From: Bradyrhizobium diazoefficiens
Lineage (GTDB): Bacteria > Pseudomonadota > Alphaproteobacteria > Rhizobiales > Xanthobacteraceae
DNA length: 64,000 bases
Assembly: GCF_018131185.1 (NCBI RefSeq)
Contig: NZ_JAFCJE010000003.1
Span: 744,001 to 808,000, forward strand
Direction of reading: 5' to 3'
The notes beneath the pieces are model-generated. The model searched no databases. It was given only the letters and a program-made list of their open reading frames with translations, and was not told the origin of the DNA. Within the stretch, counting starts at the first letter, position 1. The number at the start of each line of letters is the position of its first letter. Shown here one piece after another: positions 25,724 to 30,740 of the stretch. The translations under genes and the position numbers were made by a program.

Positions 25724-26116
25724 CTAATTCAGCACCCGCTTGCTGTCCGGGCTGTCCAGCGAAAATGCGGGAACGTCGATCTCGAAGCGCTCGCCGCTTT
25801 CGGTGACCATCTGGTAGCGGCCGGTCATGAAGCCGGAGGCGGTCGAGAGCGGCACGCCCGAGGTGTATTCGAAGCGCTCGCCGGGGCCCAGGATCGGCTG
25901 CTCGCCGACCACGCCCTCGCCCTTCACCTCCTGCTGGCGGCCGGAGGCGTCGGTGATGATCCAGTGCCGCGTCTTGAGCTGCACGGTCTCCTCGCCGGAA
26001 TTGGTGATGACGATGGTGTAGGACCAGAAGTAGCGCGAACGGTCGGCCGACGACTGCTCCGGAACAAAGTTCGGCTCGACGGTCACTTCAATCTGGCGGG
26101 TCACGGCGCGGTACAT
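25724..26116 (-). CDS. apaG: ApaG protein
   Basis: The 130-residue protein is a single ApaG domain of fibronectin-III-like fold. It shows YFWSYTIVITNSGEETVQL (about residues 30-48), RHWIITDASG and GVVGEQPILGPGERFEYTSG, the conserved core. Its molecular role is still unclear; in enterobacteria it is linked to Co2+ resistance and nucleotide handling. The ATG at 26116 gives the usual MYRAVTR start; one 12 bases upstream is also in frame. It is divergent from opgC. Confidence 0.94.
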   Translation of the reverse strand: MYRAVTRQIEVTVEPNFVPEQSSADRSRYFWSYTIVITNSGEETVQLKTRHWIITDASGRQQEVKGEGVVGEQPILGPGERFEYTSGVPLSTASGFMTGRYQMVTESGERFEIDVPAFSLDSPDSKRVLN

Positions 26117-26323
26117 GGCTGCTACCATACCGAAATCCCGCTCCGGAACCAAACGCTGCGGGCCGCCTGGCGACATCGTCCCGCCAGAATTCAGAGGAAA
26201 TGACACCCTCGGAAAACATTCCAAGGCAAGCACCCCCTGCTGATCCGGCCGCTTTGCGAGATGACGACCGGACCGGTACACTCCTTGACACGTCGCGATT
26301 TGCGGAAGGGTTTTTGACCCCCG

Positions 26324-27580
26324 ATGACCATTGCCGACCAAGTGACGGGACAGACGATCGCGGGAACCGCGGGTGCCAAGCCCGCGGGGACCAGGCCGCG
26401 CGTGAGGGCGCCGGCGATCACGCTGCCCGCCATCGGCGAGCGTGAGCTCCGGCTCGACCTGTTCCGCGGGCTGGCGCTGTGGCTGATCTTCATCGACCAT
26501 CTGCCGGCCAGCCTGTTGACGTGGTTCACGATCCGCAACTACGGCTTCAGCGACGCCACCGAGATCTTCATCTTCATCTCCGGCTACACCGCGGCCTTCG
26601 TCTACGGAAGGGCGATGCTGGAGAGCGGCGTCCTCATCGCCACCGCGCGCATCCTGCGCCGGGTCTGGCAGATCTATGTCGCCCACGTCTTCCTGTTCAC
26701 GATCTTCCTCGCCGAAATCTCCTATGTCGCGACCAGGTTCGAGAACCCGCTCTACACCGAAGAGATGGGTATCATGGACTTCCTCAAGCATCCGGACGTC
26801 ACCATCGTGCAGGCGCTGCTCCTGCGCTTCCGTCCCGTCAACATGGACGTGCTGCCGCTCTACATCGTGCTGATGCTGGCGCTGCCCTTGATCCTGTGGT
26901 CGATGAAGTGGCGACCCGACGTCACCCTCGGCCTCTCGGTCGTACTCTACGCGGTGACCTGGGAGTACGATCTTTATCTTTCGGCCTATCCGAACGGCTT
27001 CTGGGCCTTCAATCCTTTTGCCTGGCAATTGCTGTTCGTGTTCGGTGCATGGTGCGCGCTCGGAGGTGCGCGGCGCATGTCCCGTATCCTGTCGTCACGC
27101 GTCACGATGTGGATGGCGATCGCCTATCTCGTCGCGGCGTTCTACGTGACGCTGACCTGGTACGTGCCGCAGCTCTCCCAGTTCATGCCGAAGCGCATCG
27201 AGCAATGGATGTATCCGATCAACAAGACCGATCTCGACGTGCTGCGCTTCACGCACTTCCTGGCGCTGGCCGCGCTTACCGTGCGCTTCCTGCCCCGGGA
27301 TTGGCCGGGCTTGAAATCGCGTTGGCTGCGACCATTGATTCTATGTGGCCAGCATTCGCTCGAGATCTTCTGCCTCGGCGTCTTCCTGGCCTTTGCGGGC
27401 CATTTCATCCTCGCCGAAGTCTCCGGCGGGGCGGCCATGCATGCGTTGATTAGTCTCTCCGGGGTCCTGATCATGTGGGGCGTGGCGTGGGTGATTTCGT
27501 GGTACAAGCGGGTGGCTGACAAGAGCGGTGCGAAAACCAAGAACGCCGTCGGCAATGCCGATCTGGCGGGAGGGGGCTGA
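26324..27580 (+). CDS. opgC: OpgC-like membrane acyltransferase
   Basis: This 418-residue inner membrane protein has about ten hydrophobic segments and the OpgC/acyltransferase-3 pattern: LRLDLFRGLALWLIFIDHLP (about residues 42-61) with the key His, then TEIFIFISGYTAAFVYG. OpgC proteins transfer succinyl or similar acyl groups to periplasmic glucans. The stop overlaps the start of a secreted SGNH gene, and a second SGNH gene follows. That coupling suggests an acyl-modification unit for an envelope glycan. The glycan and acyl group are unknown. Confidence 0.85.
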   Translation: MTIADQVTGQTIAGTAGAKPAGTRPRVRAPAITLPAIGERELRLDLFRGLALWLIFIDHLPASLLTWFTIRNYGFSDATEIFIFISGYTAAFVYGRAMLESGVLIATARILRRVWQIYVAHVFLFTIFLAEISYVATRFENPLYTEEMGIMDFLKHPDVTIVQALLLRFRPVNMDVLPLYIVLMLALPLILWSMKWRPDVTLGLSVVLYAVTWEYDLYLSAYPNGFWAFNPFAWQLLFVFGAWCALGGARRMSRILSSRVTMWMAIAYLVAAFYVTLTWYVPQLSQFMPKRIEQWMYPINKTDLDVLRFTHFLALAALTVRFLPRDWPGLKSRWLRPLILCGQHSLEIFCLGVFLAFAGHFILAEVSGGAAMHALISLSGVLIMWGVAWVISWYKRVADKSGAKTKNAVGNADLAGGG

Positions 27581-28350
27581 TGAAGGCGAAGGTTCTCCTG
27601 AGCCTGATCCTGCTATGCGGTAGCCTCGCCGCGCCTGTGGCGCGCGCGGGGGATGCTGCGTCTGCCGCGCCCGCGGCATGCGAATTGCCGTCTTATCTAC
27701 TTACCAGCGAAAGCCGGCTTCCCAAGGTCGCCGATGCCATCAAGGCCGGCAAACCGCTCGACATCCTCGTCATCGGCAGCCGCTCGACCACGATTCCGTC
27801 TTCGGAGGGCAGCTCCTATCCGGCGCGCATGGAGGCGATGCTCAAGGAGAAGCTGCCGCCGTCCGAGGTGGTGCACGTCTCCGTAGAAATACAGAGCAAG
27901 AGAACCGCGGAGGAGGCCGCCTCCACCTTCGTTAAGCTGTTGGAAGCAAAAACGCCTACTTTGGTCATCTGGCAGACCGGGACCGTGGATGCCATCCGAT
28001 CCATCGATCCCGACGAATTTCGCAGCGCCGTGACCGATGGAGTTGTTGCGTTGCAAAAGGCAGGGGCCGACGTCGTCTTGATGAATTTGCAGTACAGCCC
28101 GCGCACCGAAACGATGATCTCGGCGCAACCGTTTCTCGATAATATGCGCGTGGTGGCGCAGGAGCACGATATTCCCCTGTTCGATCGTTTCGCGATCATG
28201 CGGCAGTGGAATGATCAGGGTCAGTTCGACCTGTTCAGCCCGTCCCGCGGGCCCGAGCTGGCGAAACAGGTCCATGATTGCCTCGGCCGGGCGTTGGCAC
28301 AGTTCGTGATTGACGCTGCCCATCTGGAGCCGGCCCAGCAGCAAAATTGA
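27580..28350 (+). CDS. Secreted SGNH-like protein, catalytic residues apparently lost
   Basis: The 256-residue product has a Sec signal peptide (first 23 residues, ending ARA) and is clearly a paralogue of the next gene (compare LVIWQTGTVDAIR with LVIWQVGTNAVLR, and QYSP in both). Block I reads GSRSTT, but the block III Asn is Val136, and the block V DxxH near the C-terminus is absent. So it is probably not an active esterase and may be a glycan-binding or scaffold partner. It overlaps the opgC stop by one base. Confidence 0.72.
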   Translation: MKAKVLLSLILLCGSLAAPVARAGDAASAAPAACELPSYLLTSESRLPKVADAIKAGKPLDILVIGSRSTTIPSSEGSSYPARMEAMLKEKLPPSEVVHVSVEIQSKRTAEEAASTFVKLLEAKTPTLVIWQTGTVDAIRSIDPDEFRSAVTDGVVALQKAGADVVLMNLQYSPRTETMISAQPFLDNMRVVAQEHDIPLFDRFAIMRQWNDQGQFDLFSPSRGPELAKQVHDCLGRALAQFVIDAAHLEPAQQQN

Positions 28351-28362
28351 GGTCTAGCGTTA

Positions 28363-29355
28363 ATGAGTTCTCTCCGCCCTTTTTGCCTGACGACATGGTT
28401 GGCCGCGCCTGTAGCCGCGATGCTGTTGTTCCTGGCGCCGGCCTCGCAGTCGCATGCGCAGACGCAAACCGCGCAGGCGACATCCACCGCGCCGCAGACG
28501 GCTGATCCTGCTCCCGCTTCCCCCTCGCAGACCACTGTCGCCGCGACCTCGCCCGAGCAGCGCGGCGTCACCTCGCGCGCCGTCGACAAGGTCAAGCAGG
28601 TCGCCAAGTCCGCCGCCGACATTTTCAGCCGCGTACCCTGCCTGCCGCCGAAGGGCGGTGCGAAGGCGATGGGCACGCTGCCGCATGTCGCAGGCAAGCT
28701 CGCCGCGGGCCAGCCCGTGGTCATCGTCGCATTCGGCTCGTCCTCGACGCAGGGATTCGGGGCGAGTTCGCCGGAGTTCAACTATCCGAACCGTCTTGCC
28801 GCGCAGCTGCGCCGGCACTATCCGAGCGCCGACATCACCGTCGTCAATGCCGGCGTCGGCGGCGAGGACGCCCCCGAGATGATGAAGCGCCTGCAGACGC
28901 AGGTGATCGATACTCATCCGGATCTCGTGATCTGGCAGGTCGGCACCAACGCCGTACTGCGCAATCTCGATCCCGGCGAGACTGCCAAGCTGGTCGAGGA
29001 CGGCATCAGCCGCATTCAGGCCGCCGGTGGCACCGACATCGTGCTGGTCGATCCGCAATATTCGCCGGCCGTCAACCAGCGCAAGGAGAGCGCCGGCAAG
29101 ATGATCAAGCTGCTCGGCAATGTTGCCGAGCTCCGCAAGGTCGGCATCTTCCCCCGTTTCGAGGTGATGCGGGATTGGCACGAGAACCAGTCGATCCCGG
29201 TCGAGAGCTTTGTCATTGCCGACGGGCTGCACATGAACGATTGGGGCTATGCCTGCTTCGCCCAACTGCTTGCCGACGACATCATCCGCTCCGTCGGCCA
29301 GATCAAGCTGGGCGTGAACGTGCCGGCGGACGTGCGGACGTATCGGCCGATGTGA
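28363..29355 (+). CDS. Secreted SGNH/GDSL hydrolase
   Basis: The 330-residue protein has a signal peptide (to about residue 32), a low-complexity T/A/P/S linker (33-65), and an SGNH domain. The blocks are complete: GSSST with nucleophile probably Ser127, NAGVGGED with the oxyanion Gly, GTNA with Asn196, and DGLH with Asp287 and His290. It should hydrolyse or transfer an ester in the periplasm. It follows the degenerate paralogue by 12 bases in the opgC operon, so deacylation or acyl transfer on a periplasmic glycan is the likely theme. Confidence 0.82.
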   Translation: MSSLRPFCLTTWLAAPVAAMLLFLAPASQSHAQTQTAQATSTAPQTADPAPASPSQTTVAATSPEQRGVTSRAVDKVKQVAKSAADIFSRVPCLPPKGGAKAMGTLPHVAGKLAAGQPVVIVAFGSSSTQGFGASSPEFNYPNRLAAQLRRHYPSADITVVNAGVGGEDAPEMMKRLQTQVIDTHPDLVIWQVGTNAVLRNLDPGETAKLVEDGISRIQAAGGTDIVLVDPQYSPAVNQRKESAGKMIKLLGNVAELRKVGIFPRFEVMRDWHENQSIPVESFVIADGLHMNDWGYACFAQLLADDIIRSVGQIKLGVNVPADVRTYRPM

Positions 29356-29460: not shown

Positions 29461-30648
29461 TTACGCCTTCTCCAGCGCGGCGGTCAGATCCTCGATCAGA
29501 TCGTCCGCATGCTCGAGCCCTGCGGAGAAGCGGATGAAGCCTTCGCCGATGCCGAGGGCGGCGCGGTCTTCCGGCTTCAGGCGCTGATGCGTCGTGGTCG
29601 CCGGATGCGTGACCAGGCTCTTGGCGTCCCCGAGATTGTTCGAGATTCGCGCGAGCTTGAGCTCGTTGAGCACGCGGAACGCAGCCGCTTTGCCGCCCTT
29701 GACCTCGAAGCCGACCAGCGTCGAGCCGCCGCGCATCTGCTTTTTCACCAGCGCCGCTTGCGGATGATCGGCGCGGCCGGGATAGACCAGCCGCGCGATC
29801 TTCGGATGGCTCGCCAGCACCTCGGCGATGCGCGCCGCGGTATCGGTCTGCGCGCGCACGCGCACGCTGAGCGTCTCCAGGCCCTTGAGCAGAACCCAGG
29901 CGTTGAACGGCGAGATCGACGGGCCGGTCTGGCGCATGAAATTGTGGATGTGCTCGGCGATGAAGGCTTCCGAGGACAGGATGATGCCGCCGAGGCAGCG
30001 GCCCTGGCCGTCGATATGCTTGGTCGCGGAATAGACCACGACGTCGGCGCCCAGCGCGAGCGGGCTCTGCCAGATCGGGGTCGCGAACACGTTGTCGACG
30101 ACGAGCCGCGCGCCGCCCTTGTGCGCGATCTCCGCGATCGAGGGGATGTCGAGCACGTCGAGCGTCGGGTTGGTCGGGCTCTCCAGGAAGAACGTCTTGG
30201 TATTCGGCCGCAGCGCGCGCTGCCACTGGTCGAGATCGAGGCCGTCGACCAGCGTGGTCTCGATGCCGTAGCGCGGCAACAGGTCCTGGATGACGTAGAG
30301 ACACGAGCCGAACAGCGCGCGGGAAGCCACGACATGATCGCCGGCCTTGAGCGGCGCCAGGATCGCGGTCGTCACCGCGGCCATGCCAGTTGCCGCCGAG
30401 CGGGCGGCTTCGGCTCCCTCGAGCTCGATCATGCGGCGCTCGAACATCGCGATGGTGGGATTGGAATAGCGCGAATAGATGAAGCCCGGATCCTCGCCCT
30501 TGAACCGTGCCTCGCATTCCTCGGCGCTGTTGTAGACGTAGCCTTGCGTCAGGAACAGCGACTCCGACGTCTCCCCATATTGCGAGCGCAGGGTGCCGGA
30601 ATGGACCAGGCGGGTTTCGGGACGGTAAGCAGCAGGCGACTTCGACAT
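29461..30648 (-). CDS. metZ: O-succinylhomoserine sulfhydrylase
   Basis: The 395-residue PLP enzyme of the Cys/Met metabolism family makes homocysteine from O-succinylhomoserine and sulfide. It shows YSRYSNPTIAMFE, the PLP Asp region VDNVFATPI, the Schiff-base Lys in YSATKHIDGQG, and SLVTHPATTTH near the C-terminus. The start at 30648 has GGAGGGTCC upstream and begins at the family-typical residues. Its leader holds a SAM-II riboswitch with a terminator, so it should shut off when S-adenosylmethionine is high. Confidence 0.93.
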   Translation of the reverse strand: MSKSPAAYRPETRLVHSGTLRSQYGETSESLFLTQGYVYNSAEECEARFKGEDPGFIYSRYSNPTIAMFERRMIELEGAEAARSAATGMAAVTTAILAPLKAGDHVVASRALFGSCLYVIQDLLPRYGIETTLVDGLDLDQWQRALRPNTKTFFLESPTNPTLDVLDIPSIAEIAHKGGARLVVDNVFATPIWQSPLALGADVVVYSATKHIDGQGRCLGGIILSSEAFIAEHIHNFMRQTGPSISPFNAWVLLKGLETLSVRVRAQTDTAARIAEVLASHPKIARLVYPGRADHPQAALVKKQMRGGSTLVGFEVKGGKAAAFRVLNELKLARISNNLGDAKSLVTHPATTTHQRLKPEDRAALGIGEGFIRFSAGLEHADDLIEDLTAALEKA

Positions 30649-30661
30649 AGGACCCTCCGAC

Positions 30662-30687
30662 GTGACCGCTTCGTCGAAAACGGTCAC
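30662..30687 (-). promoter_or_regulatory. Hairpin just upstream of the metZ ribosome-binding site
   Basis: GTGACCG and CGGTCAC form a perfect 7-bp stem with a 12-base loop, ending about 5 bases before GGAGGG. It follows the T-run of the leader terminator and could mask or present the ribosome-binding site. Confidence 0.5.
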
Positions 30688-30740
30688 AAAAAAACCGGCC
30701 TGGATATCTCCACGGGCCGGGATCACAGAGGTCCCCGGCC
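30688..30740 (-). terminator. metZ leader terminator with competing antiterminator hairpin
   Basis: In the minus-strand RNA, CCGGCC (30715-30720) pairs with GGCCGG (30695-30700) and is followed by seven U (30688-30694): an intrinsic terminator. The same CCGGCC also ends an upstream hairpin, GGCCGGG (30734-30740) with CCCGGCC (30715-30721). The two folds exclude each other, as in an attenuator. Confidence 0.75.

Follow-up and report, generated by a model that had tools for sequence, protein, structure and literature searches.

In the peptidoglycan acetyltransferases OatA, an AT3-SGNH protein, and PatA, an MBOAT protein, the acetyl group is carried on a Tyr before an SGNH Ser transfers it to peptidoglycan (PMC12148441). 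The OpgC_C family has been placed in the TmAT superfamily, which it shares with AT3 (PMC12423673). A review from 2022 treats the partner of AT3-only proteins as an open question (PMC9558356), and a paper from 2023 states that an as yet unknown AT3 partner may exist (PMC9833829). Here we describe a locus of Bradyrhizobium diazoefficiens that bears on the question of whether AT3 proteins without a fused SGNH domain depend on a separate one, and that offers concrete partner candidates, both in Bradyrhizobium and in a second host, Azospirillum brasilense Sp7. It occupies positions 26324 to 29355 of a 64,000-nucleotide stretch of contig NZ_JAFCJE010000003.1 (positions 744,001 to 808,000), hereafter called the window, and encodes an OpgC_C-family membrane acyltransferase (OpgC), an SGNH-fold protein with a lost active site (SGNH1), and a second SGNH protein, whose active site is complete (SGNH2). 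The inactive SGNH1 is of ancient origin and maintained by selection, and not a decaying gene.

Three kinds of described system resemble this locus. The OpgC/MdoC succinyltransferases of osmoregulated periplasmic glucans (OPGs) are like the window's OpgC in their family, PF10129, to which Rhodobacter-type OpgC also belongs; a control search of E. coli gave no match to PF10129. A point of difference is that the OpgC of the window falls outside a group of 33 OpgC domains that have no SGNH member within 1.1 kb. In the AT3-SGNH fusions (OatA, OafA/OafB, and PglI), too, a periplasmic SGNH domain cooperates with a 10-helix acyltransferase from the superfamily of OpgC (PMC9833829, PMC12148441), but in the window the membrane protein is of the OpgC_C type and not of the PF01757 type at that family's cut-off (E 4e-6, under the cut-off), and the SGNH parts are separate proteins, one of the two inactive by sequence. 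The systems made of an MBOAT protein and separate SGNH proteins (PatA/PatB/Ape1; AlgI with AlgJ, AlgX, and AlgF; WssH) likewise join a membrane acyl mover to periplasmic SGNH proteins, and PatA/PatB/Ape1 and AlgIJFX have two SGNH-type proteins, as the window does (PMC12148441). They differ in that the membrane part of the window is OpgC_C and not MBOAT, and in that the available passages of PMC12148441 describe no conserved SGNH pseudoenzyme for them. Among open-licence passages of the PubMed Central literature, we found no mention of OpgC having SGNH partners, of such a conserved SGNH pseudoenzyme, or of PF25182. Since the Pfam name of PF25182, NonGDSL, already exists, motif-less proteins have been noticed before.

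Organization of the locus

The three genes lie on the forward strand exactly where the initial annotation of the window had placed them:

26324..27580, forward strand: OpgC_C-family (AT3/TmAT-type) membrane acyltransferase, 418 amino acids (Pfam PF10129, E 2.7e-143)
27578..27582, forward strand: TGATG stop/start overlap at the OpgC/SGNH1 junction, read from the sequence
27580..28350, forward strand: SGNH1, an SGNH-fold pseudoenzyme, 256 amino acids, probably secreted (NonGDSL, PF25182, E 1.1e-87)
28363..29355, forward strand: SGNH2, an SGNH enzyme with a complete active site, 330 amino acids, probably secreted (PF25182, E 3.6e-50; Lipase_GDSL_2, PF13472, E 5.5e-19)

The first gene, described earlier as OpgC-like, matches PF10129 over the whole profile (positions 1-358 of 358) with 477.7 bits, against a cut-off of 21.4. 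It overlaps the SGNH1 gene by one base, and the TGATG motif suggests that translation of the two may be coupled; the SGNH1 and SGNH2 genes are 12 bases apart. SGNH1 and SGNH2 are both full-length PF25182 members over the cut-off and share 30% identity across 220 columns (E 1e-26). Both are probably secreted, to judge from signal peptides identified by eye, and the N-terminal stretch of SGNH2 is rich in Ala and Pro. Given the length of the frames, the probability of a stop-free frame (P 2e-5 to 4e-4 for each gene), the GC content at third codon positions (0.75-0.86), and their conservation, the three frames are unlikely to have arisen by chance.

The host genome (6.94 Mb in 23 contigs) holds two NonGDSL members over the cut-off, both at this locus, and five OpgC genes, of which only the copy in the window has a NonGDSL neighbor in the stretches fetched. 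The other four OpgC genes are found at C18:169264, C20:477744, C23:135415, and C19:268904 (loci L107-L110).

Active sites and predicted folds

Alignment confirmed the Ser127, Asn196, Asp287, and His290 tetrad that had been read from the SGNH2 sequence, and added Gly167 in block II, so that the catalytic Ser, Gly, Asn, and Asp-x-x-His of the SGNH superfamily are all present; we took column 167 to be that of the block II Gly on the basis of the TesA motif. In SGNH1, the initial annotation had pointed to the absence of the block III Asn and of the DxxH. Both are indeed missing, the former replaced by Val, and the loss goes further: an Arg (in GSRS) stands at the nucleophile position and a Lys is aligned with the block II Gly, which brings to four the active-site elements lost.

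Structure prediction of each SGNH protein alone, which had been proposed as a check, returned an SGNH fold for both. The AlphaFold2 model of SGNH1 (predicted local distance difference test score (pLDDT) 76.9, predicted template modeling score (pTM) 0.79) has E. coli TesA as its top Foldseek match (E 8.6e-7), 6hh9 as its best VIA match (Z 16.5, root mean square deviation 3.0, 196 aligned), and the esterase Ape1 (8gld) as its third-ranked fold match; SGNH1 therefore combines a TesA-like fold with the lack of the catalytic Ser, Gly, Asn, and DxxH. The SGNH2 model (298 residues; pLDDT 68.8, pTM 0.69) has a pLDDT below 50 over its residues 1-49; in fold comparisons the solved structures that rank highest for it are mostly those of esterases, plus a thioesterase. 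The OafB SGNH structure 6SE1 was not among the 50 fold-match rows listed. All models are of single chains.

Distribution and origin of the inactive copies

PF25182 was searched for in 249 genomes of the same order, 385 of the same class, and 398 of the same phylum. Members over the cut-off were present in 52/249 order genomes and 42/385 class genomes; in the phylum sample, at least 32 genomes with PF25182 were found among the matches listed, all of the same class, a figure that speaks only to that listed part. A stretch was fetched for each listed over-cut-off place (121), which with the window makes 122 loci. Copies in which at least one of Ser127, Asn196, Asp287, and His290 was replaced in the alignment were called inactive. 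The loci were thereby classified as OpgC-inactive-intact (26), OpgC-inactive (19), OpgC-intact (20), intact (divergent)-OpgC-inactive (4), intact without OpgC in the stretch (45), and others (8); the order OpgC-intact-inactive was met at 1 of the 122. The three-gene set is widely conserved and occurs in many alphaproteobacteria, and an intact copy is also held by 46 of the 51 genomes that have an inactive one. In Azospirillum brasilense Sp7, the same three genes are found on plasmid ABSP7_p2, and at each of the two junctions the end of one gene overlaps the start of the next:

AMK58_RS24165: OpgC
AMK58_RS24170: inactive copy, annotated as "hypothetical protein" (PF25182, E 4.6e-76)
AMK58_RS24175: intact copy, annotated as "GDSL-type esterase/lipase"

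According to the alignment, the inactive copy of this strain has Ala at the positions of both the serine and the block III Asn and no DxxH.

A domain tree was built from 150 rows (50 inactive, 100 intact) of the 156 matches. The rows omitted were L111 and L112 (matches in the window's own genome under the cut-off), two L152 fragments (inactive, beside OpgC), and L151 and L164 (intact, without OpgC, partial). Thirty-three inactive rows from many families, including SGNH1 of the window, form one group with a Shimodaira-Hasegawa-like approximate likelihood ratio test support (SH-aLRT) of 100, and the tree requires 4 changes of state, 3 of which are forced by starred branches. As the catalytic columns could themselves create such an old group, the tree was rebuilt without the catalytic motif columns from 105 thinned rows. 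In this motif-free tree, 23 of the 24 old-group rows still cluster (bootstrap 82, SH-aLRT 97), the long branch L120 being the one that strays; a tree constrained to unite all 24 has a higher likelihood and is not rejected by the approximately unbiased test (p-AU 0.735). Six changes of state are needed here, and starred branches force at least 4 of these. Provided that a complete active site was never regained, the trees indicate one old inactivation and some later ones.

Asn196, Asp287, and His290 are lost in all 33 rows of the old group. Its scaffold is preserved, with W191, G194, R265, Cys93, and Cys298 retained in 33/33 rows and Q232 and M269 in 32/33 (SGNH2 numbering), residues most of which are also highly conserved among the intact rows. 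An OpgC gene lies within 1.1 kb of 50/50 inactive rows, versus 54/100 intact rows. It should be noted that this adjacency represents about 3-4 independent state changes and not 50, so that a sign test on independent branches, relating loss of the active site to an adjacent OpgC, cannot reach significance (3 pairs with starred branches, 4 with all branches; median p 1; too few pairs). Pfam treats NonGDSL as one family, which the trees resolve into an intact stock and a number of inactive lineages adjacent to OpgC. These lineages amount to a natural experiment in pseudoenzyme evolution, in which one active site was lost several times, in every copy seen beside the same membrane protein.

Conservation and selection in Bradyrhizobium

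Named genomes were scanned for SGNH1 relatives, of which the best 80 of 280 were kept; by their titles, 78 are from Bradyrhizobium, one is from a Bradyrhizobiaceae bacterium, and one is from Frankia sp. RB7, and named diversity beyond these 80 loci comes from a plasmid collection only. All three genes are present in order at 78/80 of the loci, in line with the conservation that the initial annotation had made a test of its proposal. The two exceptions are L170, which stops at a contig edge, and L243, the one locus of the 80 with an apparent single-chain layout like that of the AT3-SGNH fusions, in which OpgC and SGNH1 are read as one frame. In this locus, from Bradyrhizobium sp. NAS80.1 (L243:3486-5669), the two are joined via an altered OpgC tail. 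The fused signal peptide of SGNH1 might then serve as an additional transmembrane helix of the kind found in AT3-SGNH fusions, or the single frame may be a draft-sequence error. The locus titled Frankia sp. RB7 (L193) is a Bradyrhizobium-like copy with 87% protein identity, perhaps from a mixed or mislabeled culture.

The SGNH1 frame is open at all 80 loci, with Arg (74/80) or Gly (6/80) at the nucleophile position and Val at block III throughout (80/80), while SGNH2 retains its Ser and Asn at 79/79. Median ratios of nonsynonymous to synonymous substitution rates (dN/dS) relative to the window were 0.112 for OpgC (80 pairs), 0.164 for SGNH1 (80 pairs), and 0.193 for SGNH2 (79 pairs), the pairs all sharing the window branch and so not being independent. 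These values show that the inactive gene is under purifying selection.

The module is flanked by two genes that lie outside it:

25724..26200, reverse strand: apaG (PF04379, E 8.2e-37)
29461..30726, reverse strand: pyridoxal phosphate enzyme of Cys/Met metabolism, metZ-like by eye (PF01053, E 1.5e-128)

Other genomes of the genus share the arrangement argD-argF-hslO-apaG-[module]-metZ-dcd (gene names assigned by eye).

Association with OpgC

OpgC is encoded by 117/249 of the order genomes and by all 52 of those with a NonGDSL member, a coincidence with a chance of 4e-21 if genomes are treated as independent and of 2.5e-5 when counted by family (12/12 within 25/52 families). In the class sample, OpgC is found in 69/385 genomes and in 41/42 of those with a NonGDSL member, the OpgC match of one genome (G593) being partial. 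The exception is G311 (family f115, locus L151), the sole member-holding genome of its family that was searched for OpgC. The order and class samples share five genomes, and the lists behind these co-occurrence counts were matched by reading. Co-occurrence at the genome level holds even for NonGDSL members that are distant from OpgC.

We then asked which OpgC proteins have SGNH neighbors, using a tree of 141 OpgC domains. An SGNH member lies within 1.1 kb of 74 of them and is absent from that range for 67 (60 of these hand-picked). The 33 rows without a near SGNH member mentioned above cluster together with an SH-aLRT of 100, whereas partner-linked rows are spread over several other groups. 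For one row of the 33, L093, there is an intact member at a distance of 2.8 kb, and the genomes of several others hold a member elsewhere. Because OpgG adjoins OpgC, within about 4 kb, in six of the 33 group genomes (G401, G044, G029, G503, G257, and G395), this group appears to be the classical OPG type. It is thus a group including opgG-linked OpgC from which the OpgC of the window is excluded.

Proposed mechanism and alternatives

The initial annotation had suggested that the two SGNH proteins form a two-subunit periplasmic system that edits or transfers acyl groups on a glycan. This suggestion is supported in part: as far as sequences can tell, the pairing of inactive with intact copies, the adjacency of every inactive row to OpgC, and purifying selection fit a pair of periplasmic proteins that works with a membrane acyltransferase. 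Our preferred reading, to which we give evenly balanced credence, is that the three genes encode one split acyltransferase, with OpgC as the carrier, SGNH1 as a non-catalytic docking subunit, and SGNH2 as the catalyst. OpgC would take an acyl group, such as succinyl or acetyl, from a cytoplasmic coenzyme A donor and present it at the periplasmic face. SGNH1, permanently attached to OpgC and without catalysis of its own, would position the catalytic partner, the glycan, or both. SGNH2 would most likely accept the acyl group on Ser127 and pass it to the glycan, as do the SGNH domains of OatA and OafB and the separate protein PatB. Secretion, complex formation, the docking role, the direction of the reaction, the acyl group, and the glycan are all elements that we infer. 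More tentatively, with confidence a little short of even, the set would represent a third layout for periplasmic glycan acylation, next to MBOAT with separate SGNH proteins and to the AT3-SGNH fusions, in which an OpgC-type protein works with a catalytic SGNH protein of its own gene and with a pseudoenzyme of the SGNH fold as adaptor. The adaptor would have arisen by duplication with early loss of the active site in Alphaproteobacteria, similar adaptors would have appeared anew beside other OpgC lineages, and at least some "stand-alone" AT3-type proteins would have a missing partner of this sort.

The position of SGNH1 beside OpgC leans toward the split transferase. Several observations weigh against it. 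SGNH2 keeps the block II Gly, as do 98/100 intact rows (Ala in the other 2), and since this residue is typical of SGNH hydrolases, its retention leans toward an esterase; PatB and one OatA are named as exceptions, and not as a general rule for transferases (PMC12148441), and their type of block II replacement, Ser or Asn for Gly, which goes with a hydrophobic wall behind the Ser, is not what stands at Gly167. The available open-licence passages report no activity, complex, or acyl product for this set of proteins, and one review takes the higher occurrence of AT3-only proteins as a strong indication that AT3 works alone (PMC9558356). In the order sample, 65 of the 117 OpgC genomes have no NonGDSL member over the cut-off, so the OpgC family as such does not need an SGNH partner, and an OpgC immediately upstream is missing at 35/68 loci, all of intact members. 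The host's four other OpgC genes branch within the partner-linked part of the tree and have no SGNH neighbor in the fetched stretches. Five genomes (G218, G233, G369, G540, and G472) have an inactive copy without an intact one over the cut-off, although G472 is 70% complete and its gene is fragmentary. Finally, the loss of the active site is uneven: the old group retains the aligned nucleophile Ser in 10/33 rows and the block II Gly in 11/33, and the 17 other inactive rows retain the Ser in 14, the Asn in 3, and the aligned His in 4, so that some of these 17 may be only weakened.

The main rival, which we consider possible but distinctly less probable, is that OpgC alone acylates the glycan and that SGNH2, acting as an esterase, cuts the acyl groups back or takes them off, like Ape1 beside PatA/PatB, with SGNH1 as a glycan-binding or targeting subunit in either of the two steps. 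An early proposal already held that an acyltransferase and an esterase jointly set glycan acylation levels (PMC2824669), and SGNH2 has the hydrolase-type block II Gly (PMC12148441). Such an editing esterase, too, would be expected to co-occur with OpgC, and partnerless OpgC is common. The fold relatives of SGNH2 agree with this rival, as does the third rank of Ape1 for SGNH1, but the fold ranking says little because most solved SGNH structures are of esterases. Editing by itself also gives no account of why all the inactive copies in the tree adjoin OpgC and mostly come first after it. SGNH1 could instead be a lectin-like or chaperone-like protein with a role of its own, its adjacency to OpgC reflecting co-regulation only. 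Its catalytic site is gone, and surface roles are unreadable from single-chain models, which leaves room for such a role; we nevertheless find it improbable, as all 50 inactive rows, representing at least three state changes, are beside OpgC and no other neighbor family recurs widely. That SGNH1 is a decaying, functionless duplicate would agree with the loss of all its catalytic residues, but it belongs to an old group that spans many families, its frame is open at every named locus, and its median dN/dS (0.16) is slightly under that of the intact copy; with neither frameshifts in many relatives nor a dN/dS near 1, the age of the inactive group and the dN/dS values rule decay out for practical purposes.

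Candidate glycan substrates

No OpgG gene is found beside the OpgC of the window, and the genome's single MdoG match is on another contig (C20, versus C17). Because the genome does have this one OpgG gene, a glucan may still be the substrate here. OpgG was searched for in 44 genomes, 24 of which hold the SGNH family over the cut-off; 12 of these 24, including the window's genome, have OpgG (counted by reading). Among eight genomes picked outside the order with both inactive and intact copies, only one (G429) has it. A classical OPG locus was rejected as a general context, since OpgG near OpgC and an SGNH member was met at one fetched stretch only (L049:8208-9860, containing opgG (MdoG)). The cyclic beta-1,2-glucan synthase domain PF10091 was likewise rejected: it occurs in 2/44 genomes, neither with this SGNH family over the cut-off, and hence in 0/24 of the family-holding genomes. 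Different lineages may act on different substrates, with a glucan being one of them.

Other genomic contexts

Neighbor clustering at E 1e-15 gave no widely recurring candidate for a fourth conserved gene. The widest cluster (21 loci, 14 families) consists, by eye, of frames antisense to OpgC, three other clusters each span 3 families and 3-4 loci, and no other neighbor family recurs widely around the loci. Lone intact members were examined in the same way at 32 order loci, three further loci having no gene call. No other acyltransferase recurs beside them; their neighbors, named by eye, are purH-like, recA-like, alaS-like, and others. Lone intact NonGDSL genes follow a purH-like gene (by eye) at L050, L052, L056, L058-L060, L062, and L067; these are mostly from family f35, and their genomes have OpgC elsewhere. 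The NonGDSL members of family f115 (L151, L162-L164) are intact; four of this family represent the lone members of the class and phylum samples in the neighbor analysis, and those of L151 and L164 are near ribosomal protein genes (by eye). The plasmid pOC167 of Afipia carboxidovorans OM5, typed as conjugative, carries an OpgC gene without an annotated SGNH neighbor (L307:1-11125), which lies in a copper-related cluster (copC, copD, and a copper oxidase).

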